This document shows positions 583 through 1,485 of a DNA stretch of 64,000 nt, piece by piece. Both the position numbers and the translations under genes were made by a program. Origin of the DNA: Brachyspira aalborgi (GTDB lineage Bacteria; Spirochaetota; Brachyspiria; Brachyspirales; Brachyspiraceae); assembly GCF_008016455.1 (NCBI RefSeq), contig NZ_SAXU01000001.1, positions 992,001 through 1,056,000 of the forward strand. The letters are read 5' to 3'. Numbering within the stretch: position 1 is the first letter of the stretch; every line of letters begins with the position of its first letter. Below the pieces are notes generated by a model, which saw only the letters and a list, made by a program, of their open reading frames with translations, searched no databases and was not told the origin of the DNA.

Positions 583-1485
583 ATGACTAATTCAAAAAAA
601 ATTAAAAGAAACATAGGCGCAAGCCGTAGGCTTGCGCCCTTCGGACATGTCCGAAGCATAACTTTCACAATAATCTTATTGGCAGTAGCATTAATTTTCG
701 GTTGTAGAAAAAGCGTAGGTGGAGGAGACCCAACACCAATCGACCCTACAAAATCAATGACGGGAAATTTGCTAATCGTATCCACTGACGGAAAAACAAA
801 TTTAAACTCCATCCCTTTGAGGTTCGCTGGAGCAAATGCAACGGTAACCAAAGTTGAAGTAGAACAAGGCAAGAATTTAAATTTAGACATAAATAATTTT
901 ATTGTTGAAAACAACGCTTTAAAGTTGACAAATATTGATTTGTCTACAGCAGAGGCTGCCGTATCGAATAAAGTTACTTTAACTTTTGATTTATCCGCAA
1001 GTTCGTCTAGCCCAATTACAAGATATACTGACACTGCAGATATTTTTGTAGGAAAAATGCAAACTAATATTTCGGTTGAAACATTGAAAAAATTAAAGTT
1101 TGATGTAAGCGATACTGTAAAAGGGCAAGAAAGTTTCGATGGCGATAAGCTTGTGCAAACTGAAACAGGTAAAGCTAGGTCAATATTATTTAAAAATACT
1201 GACTTTCAAGTCGATGCTTCTGACGATAGCAAATTTACACTTGCAAATGCGAACACTGGCGATGATGGTAATCAAATAAAAATGAGCGAAATTGCAACTA
1301 TTCTCTCAAATTCTTTTAATTCTAGCCAAGATATTTCAACTTATAATAATAACGCTGGTTTTGAAATTACAAGTTCTACGGAAGGAACAAAAGCTACATT
1401 TGTGATTAAGTTCAAACCGTTCAATTCTTTTTATAAAGAACATTCAATTACATTTGACCAGAAAAAAGGAGCTTGGATAGAATAA
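583..1485 (+). CDS. Putative lipoprotein with palindromic insert in its signal peptide
   Basis: A 300-residue exported protein of unknown function. The start at 583 is chosen because AAAGGAGGA lies directly upstream; an in-frame TTG at 502 has no such site. The signal peptide has a basic N-region, a hydrophobic stretch at about residues 26-39 and a lipobox ending IFGC with Cys41, so the product is probably lipid-anchored. Residues 12-25 (GASRRLAPFGHVRS) come entirely from a GC-rich double palindrome; removing them leaves an ordinary spirochaetal lipoprotein signal. The mature part is rich in Asn, Thr, Ser and Asp and has no motif I recognise. It resembles beta-rich surface lipoproteins only in composition. 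A promoter lies at 391-418, and a hairpin and a terminator lie downstream. Confidence 0.75.
   Translation: MTNSKKIKRNIGASRRLAPFGHVRSITFTIILLAVALIFGCRKSVGGGDPTPIDPTKSMTGNLLIVSTDGKTNLNSIPLRFAGANATVTKVEVEQGKNLNLDINNFIVENNALKLTNIDLSTAEAAVSNKVTLTFDLSASSSSPITRYTDTADIFVGKMQTNISVETLKKLKFDVSDTVKGQESFDGDKLVQTETGKARSILFKNTDFQVDASDDSKFTLANANTGDDGNQIKMSEIATILSNSFNSSQDISTYNNNAGFEITSSTEGTKATFVIKFKPFNSFYKEHSITFDQKKGAWIE
616..656 (+). repeat. Double GC-rich palindrome inserted in frame
   Basis: Two adjacent perfect inverted repeats. GGCGCAAGCC (616-625) pairs with GGCTTGCGCC (629-638) around a 3-base loop. CTTCGGACATGTCCGAAG (639-656) is an 18-bp self-complementary palindrome. GC content is far above the flanks. 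The element plus one or two flanking bases amounts to 42 bp, or 14 codons, with no stop, so the reading frame is kept. It resembles in principle the Rickettsia palindromic elements that insert in frame into genes, although the sequence is different. Confidence 0.85.

Follow-up and report, generated by a model that had tools for sequence, protein, structure and literature searches.

A GC-rich double palindrome in the signal peptide of a Brachyspira aalborgi lipoprotein is probably an in-frame insertion shared with one paralogue

How does a pair of GC-rich palindromes come to lie within the signal peptide of a lipoprotein in an AT-rich genome, with the reading frame intact? The question is raised by a gene near the start of the window studied here, a stretch of 64,000 nucleotides from Brachyspira aalborgi (contig NZ_SAXU01000001.1, positions 992,001 to 1,056,000). 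The gene (583-1485, plus strand) was defined from its open reading frame (ORF) and translation, and encodes 300 amino acids that match no family in a Pfam search. Its product has the basic n-region, hydrophobic core and lipobox cysteine of a lipoprotein, as judged from the sequence and a scan of lipoprotein-like ORFs, and is predicted to be one. Palindrome 1 (616-638) has the sequence GGCGCAAGCC-GTA-GGCTTGCGCC, with perfect 10-bp arms and a 3-nt loop, and palindrome 2 (639-656) is the perfect 18-bp sequence CTTCGGACATGTCCGAAG. Both were found by direct reading, by a pattern search of the window and in a census of palindromes. They adjoin with a gap of 0 bp, giving a segment of 41 bp with a GC content of 66%, compared with 27.8% for an 864-kb sample of the genome. 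The segment is in frame with the gene and lies upstream of the hydrophobic core of the signal. A preliminary description of this DNA had noted two adjacent perfect inverted repeats rich in GC, placed in frame ahead of the core of a lipoprotein signal, and a direct reading of the bases and codons agrees with it on both points.

The edges of the segment are informative. The sequence CATA occurs immediately to the left (612-615, containing the in-frame ATA codon 613-615) and again immediately to the right (657-660, containing the in-frame ATA codon 658-660), and could be a target duplication. Of coding positions, 1.4% show a 4-bp match of this type at equal spacing. If one CATA is counted as the duplicated target then the apparent insert is 41 + 4 = 45 bp, or 15 codons, with the sequence GASRRLAPFGHVRSI. 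The preliminary description was therefore right that the extra residues are in frame, while its size of 42 bp and 14 residues gives way to 45 bp and 15 residues because CATA flanks both edges. The 15 residues include three arginines and one histidine, making the n-region both longer and more basic. The cysteine lies at position 41, whereas no other credible lipoprotein-like ORF in the sample has it beyond position 32. On removal of the 15 residues the signal becomes MTNSKKIKRNITFTIILLAVALIFGC with cysteine at position 26, and so has the ordinary appearance that had been claimed for it.

Two other readings of the N-terminus were tried and rejected. If translation began later, with the element in the 5' untranslated region (UTR), an initiation codon would be needed downstream, and the reading frame has no ATG, GTG or TTG from the element to the hydrophobic core. 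The insert contains SRR, and the signal that bears it resembles a Tat signal in having two arginine residues ahead of the hydrophobic core. The Tat consensus pattern is S-R-R-x-F-L-K, and the residues that follow SRR in the insert depart from it; moreover TatC was not found in the genome, while 11 of 14 control genomes were positive.

The segment is rare in its genome. The census took in every perfect palindrome whose arms were 8 bp or longer, with an arm GC content of at least 50% and a loop of no more than 8 nt, in the 864 kb sampled (35% of the 2.5-Mb genome); searches for the sequence of the element itself covered the whole genome. The only matches in the census were palindromes 1 and 2 and their copies in one paralogue. 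Simulation with a dinucleotide Markov model gives an expectation of about 1.3 palindromes with arms of at least 9 bp per Mb, so that it is very unlikely that two abutting ones arose by chance. Within the window each palindrome is its own sole match at up to three mismatches, and shuffled sequences gave none. A 400-kb sample of two other Brachyspira genomes contained just two GC-rich 8-bp palindromes, each isolated, and no pair. The 45 bp are also foreign in composition. Their GC content is reached in only 2 of 16,025 windows, and only 4 of 14,861 coding windows have equal or poorer codon adaptation, the codons that are poor for this genome including CGT, AGG, CGA, CCC and GTC.

The gene belongs to a family of four genes plus one remnant in this genome, and we designate the window gene paralogue a. 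The element occurs exactly twice, at matching positions in paralogues a and b, the latter gene found by whole-genome sequence search at C1:851819-852751, 140 kb from the window gene. Alignment reveals that the other two genes lack the segment: the signal of paralogue c (C1:303257-304087, minus strand) is MTNKNILKILVIMIAVLSLFAVSC with 24 residues to the cysteine, and that of paralogue d (C1:110777-111603, minus strand) is MSQKNKIFSITLLLLILGSVAC with 22. A tract of 109 bp that includes the element (566-674) is identical in a and b, within a region of 89-100% identity that extends from about −250 to +100 (96-100% around the element). Over parts of the mature region a and b are only about 55-60% identical, and at about +104 to +245, the N-terminal part of the mature protein, a is closest to d (88-91%). 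The cassettes are thus mosaic as judged by alignment, since a resembles b around the element and d just beyond it. A 3' module of about 190 bp (1504-1687, plus strand) is 93-97% conserved behind five cassettes of the family. As both copies of the element sit in a near-identical promoter-leader block a second insertion need not be invoked, and duplication or gene conversion probably made one copy from the other. The sharing explained in this way also means that the perfect stems in both genes provide no evidence of selection.

Other features of the cassettes were observed. Paralogue d (L046 178-1004) has a frameshift near residue 52, and the N-terminal part of its mature region is nearly identical to that of the window gene (PTPIDPTKSMTGNLLIVS), which points to gene conversion. 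In the remnant (C1:2224209-2225000; L141 about 300-1100, minus strand) a d-type 5' module and the first codons (MSQKNKIFS) join the 3' module directly, and the body of the lipoprotein is gone. Perfect heptamer tandem repeats lie 5' of cassette c (L045 1268-1314, GCGTCTC repeated 6.7 times) and cassette e (L141 684-738, GCTTTCT repeated 7.9 times); they are candidate tracts for phase variation of the family by change of length. Just before the Shine-Dalgarno region, the 5' UTRs of cassettes d (L046 1046-1063), c (L045 1152-1176) and e (L141 about 580-600), all on the minus strand, contain a short hairpin followed by a T-run, in the manner of an attenuator.

Beyond these two copies the element was not found. 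Searches by pattern and BLAST gave no further copy in the whole of its own genome, and there was none in the genomes of 25 other Brachyspira, in a phylum sample of 393 genomes, or in viral contigs, phages or plasmids with the patterns tried. A collection of 84,980 genomes contains 16 exact matches to palindrome 2, all of them isolated, with palindrome 1 adjacent in none. A viral, phage or plasmid origin was rejected for want of a match in those collections; a phage hit (MT836795.1; 39 bp, 82%, E = 0.4) falls in the hydrophobic core, outside the element. Nor did a protein search and a four-row profile reveal relatives or orthologues of the lipoprotein family in the 25 other Brachyspira genomes. 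The suggestion of a dispersed palindromic family with the habit of the Rickettsia palindromic elements (RPEs) is accordingly not upheld; of the copies in other genes that such a family should leave there is one, in paralogue b and inside a near-identical block, and none elsewhere in the genome, in the congeners or in the phylum sample. The preliminary description had named two observations that together would speak against insertion, namely an absence of other copies and distant orthologues with conserved protein over diverged DNA. The former holds apart from the paralogue, and of the latter no example was found.

We infer that the segment probably arose by insertion, as had been proposed. This is indicated by the two paralogues that lack it, with just 22-24 residues to the cysteine, by the 4-bp repeat at its edges and by its foreign codons. 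The account that we favor, with moderate confidence, is a single tolerated event. A short GC-rich DNA capable of forming a double hairpin would have entered an ancestral lipoprotein gene once, at CATA, duplicating those 4 bp. The basic n-region would thereby have become longer by 45 bp (15 codons), with the frame intact. The segment would be translated and then removed with the signal peptide, and hence tolerated. The n-region of a signal peptide does tolerate added length. The second copy would have arisen by duplication of the cassette or by gene conversion of the promoter-leader block between the two paralogues. Most likely the segment is translated and inert.

Several points weigh against this account. 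In the alignments of c and d the gap over the segment differs from 45 bp, so that these paralogues support insertion while falling short of proof; the divergence of their signals is also too great for the event to be dated. The flanks joined across the element match nowhere in 26 Brachyspira genomes at up to three mismatches, so that no empty site was seen, and one genome of the species was compared. In addition, no source sequence was found in the genomes and collections searched, and no inserting enzyme was identified.

The preliminary description had also suggested that the segment might fold in the mRNA just after the start codon. Calculation bears this out: the 41-nt RNA is predicted to form two hairpins of −28 kcal/mol (z = −6.3), and none of 200 shuffled sequences was as stable. 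The hairpins occupy +34 to +74 of the coding sequence, and the fold at +31 to +90 is the strongest among 723 sampled genes. Near-equal folds close to a start codon (at 703432, 1807712, 184113 and 654520) are ordinary coding sequence without paired GC-rich palindromes. The ATG itself forms the 3-nt loop between the perfect 8-bp arms of another inverted repeat (575-593, GAATTAGT-ATG-ACTAATTC), which is common to paralogue b. The folding predicted suggests that the hairpins may slow early elongation. Palindrome 2 has no T-run downstream and was rejected as an intrinsic terminator, and comparison with Rfam gave no match to an RNA family, only chance matches below threshold.

Could these structures be the reason for the presence of the segment? 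The two hairpins, together with that at the start codon, might form a cis-regulatory structure controlling translation or mRNA stability of the two lipoprotein genes. The exceptional strength of the fold, the perfect pairing in both copies, the position of the start codon within a further loop and the hairpins with T-runs in the 5' UTRs of other cassettes are all consistent with this. Yet the identity of a and b reaches well past the stems, so recent copying explains the retention of pairing. Two sister genes manage without the hairpins, and the lack of an Rfam match argues in the same direction. We therefore regard a regulatory RNA as possible, though unlikely. Control at the level of DNA can be considered too, since palindromes of 18 and 23 bp have the size and symmetry of an operator bound by a dimeric regulator within the coding sequence. 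The genome has no other such site at fewer than three mismatches, however, and the location is intragenic and more than 200 bp downstream of the promoter-like sequences seen by eye (TTGACT at 392 and TATATT at 412), so that this is highly improbable. We give as little credence to in-frame translational bypass, in which peptidyl-tRNA-Ile would leave ATA 613-615, skip 42 nt and land on ATA 658-660. Matching in-frame codons around a structured 42-nt gap are the layout of bypass inserts (PMC5009743), and the skipped product would have the ordinary 26-residue signal; if this were to occur the genes would give two precursor forms of the lipoprotein, with 26 or 41 residues to the cysteine. But there is no in-frame stop in the gap and nothing to force a hop, and in this phase the CATA repeat automatically creates the matching codons. 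With the frame open throughout, plain read-through is the simpler reading. A recoding review of 2016 (PMC5009743) states that synthetic constructs had demonstrated in-frame bypassing in E. coli and that natural cases were not known.

The remaining alternatives concern origin. Templated (snap-back) errors of replication, starting from a short seed, could have produced the palindromes where they now stand, with the CATA repeat arising by chance. A source copy was found nowhere that was searched, perfect pairing is expected of templated copying, and a 4-bp repeat with a chance of 1.4% is weak evidence for target duplication. On the other hand a GC-rich seed of about 20 bp would itself be foreign to the genome, and two adjacent events would be required; we consider this origin rather improbable. 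Still less probable is that the element is the last or the first copy of a mobile family like the RPEs, with other copies in unsampled genomes. Such a family would fit a palindromic insert that keeps the frame, is flanked by a short direct repeat and is rich in GC in an AT-rich genome. Against it stands the failure to find other copies in the genome itself, in 25 congeners, in the phylum sample of 393 genomes and in the viral, phage and plasmid collections. A single tolerated insertion thus remains the account that we favor.

Comparison with known systems reveals partial likenesses. The RPEs and the palindromic elements of Wolbachia are in-frame palindromic DNA in bacterial genes that is apparently tolerated (PMC10969869, PMC4224334). 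RPEs are about 150 bp in length, fall into ten families, and are found 44 times in R. conorii (PMC10969869). The present element is likewise in frame in coding sequence, probably by insertion, but is a GC-rich 41 bp of two perfect hairpins. Its copy is in a single paralogue, with none dispersed at unrelated sites, and it has no relatives from which a consensus could be built. The GC clusters of yeast mitochondria are short GC-rich palindromes in AT-rich DNA, also found within a protein gene (VAR1/RPS3), where they alter the size of the product; there are about 120 per mitochondrial genome (mtDNA), in sequence classes (PMC4464245). The double hairpin and repetitive hairpin-forming elements of fungal and sponge mtDNA contain tandem hairpins, and sometimes lie in protein genes without frameshift (PMC2800124). 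In terms of anatomy these two are the closest likenesses, with GC-rich hairpins in AT-rich DNA. Yet those elements are repetitive and mitochondrial, whereas here there is one site plus one paralogous copy in a bacterial chromosome, with no dispersed repeats and no related sequence, and among signs of mobility the 4-bp direct repeat is the sole hint of an insertion event. The bypass inserts of Magnusiomyces mitochondria and T4 gene 60 share a structured coding insert flanked by matching codons (PMC5009743, PMC6649704), here the two ATA codons; reading those inserts would break the protein, whereas here the frame is open.

Some other features of the genome and window may be recorded. Six genes match PF05540, the Serpulina (Brachyspira) variable surface protein family, compared with none in the 14 control genomes. 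A perfect ACACT repeat of 13.8 units (9543-9611) begins four codons past an ATG (9531), upstream of a membrane protein gene at 9727, and looks like a phase-variable pentamer tract. The perfect 26-bp palindrome AAACAAGGGGTTGCAACCCCTTGTTT (45304-45329) has the longest arms in the window scan. At 36911-38756 a gene segment is present in two tandem copies, about 985 bp apart and 90-95% identical, each with an internal 60-bp repeat.

By itself the element does not establish that a new mobile family exists. Rickettsia and Wolbachia have supplied most descriptions of palindromic inserts that keep the frame of bacterial genes. The single case described here, from a spirochaete, has boundaries known to the base and a leader that recurs in a sister gene, and provides a test object for the origin of such inserts. 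It could serve equally to examine how much length the n-region of a lipoprotein tolerates, and what effect tandem hairpins placed 30 nt past the start codon have on expression.
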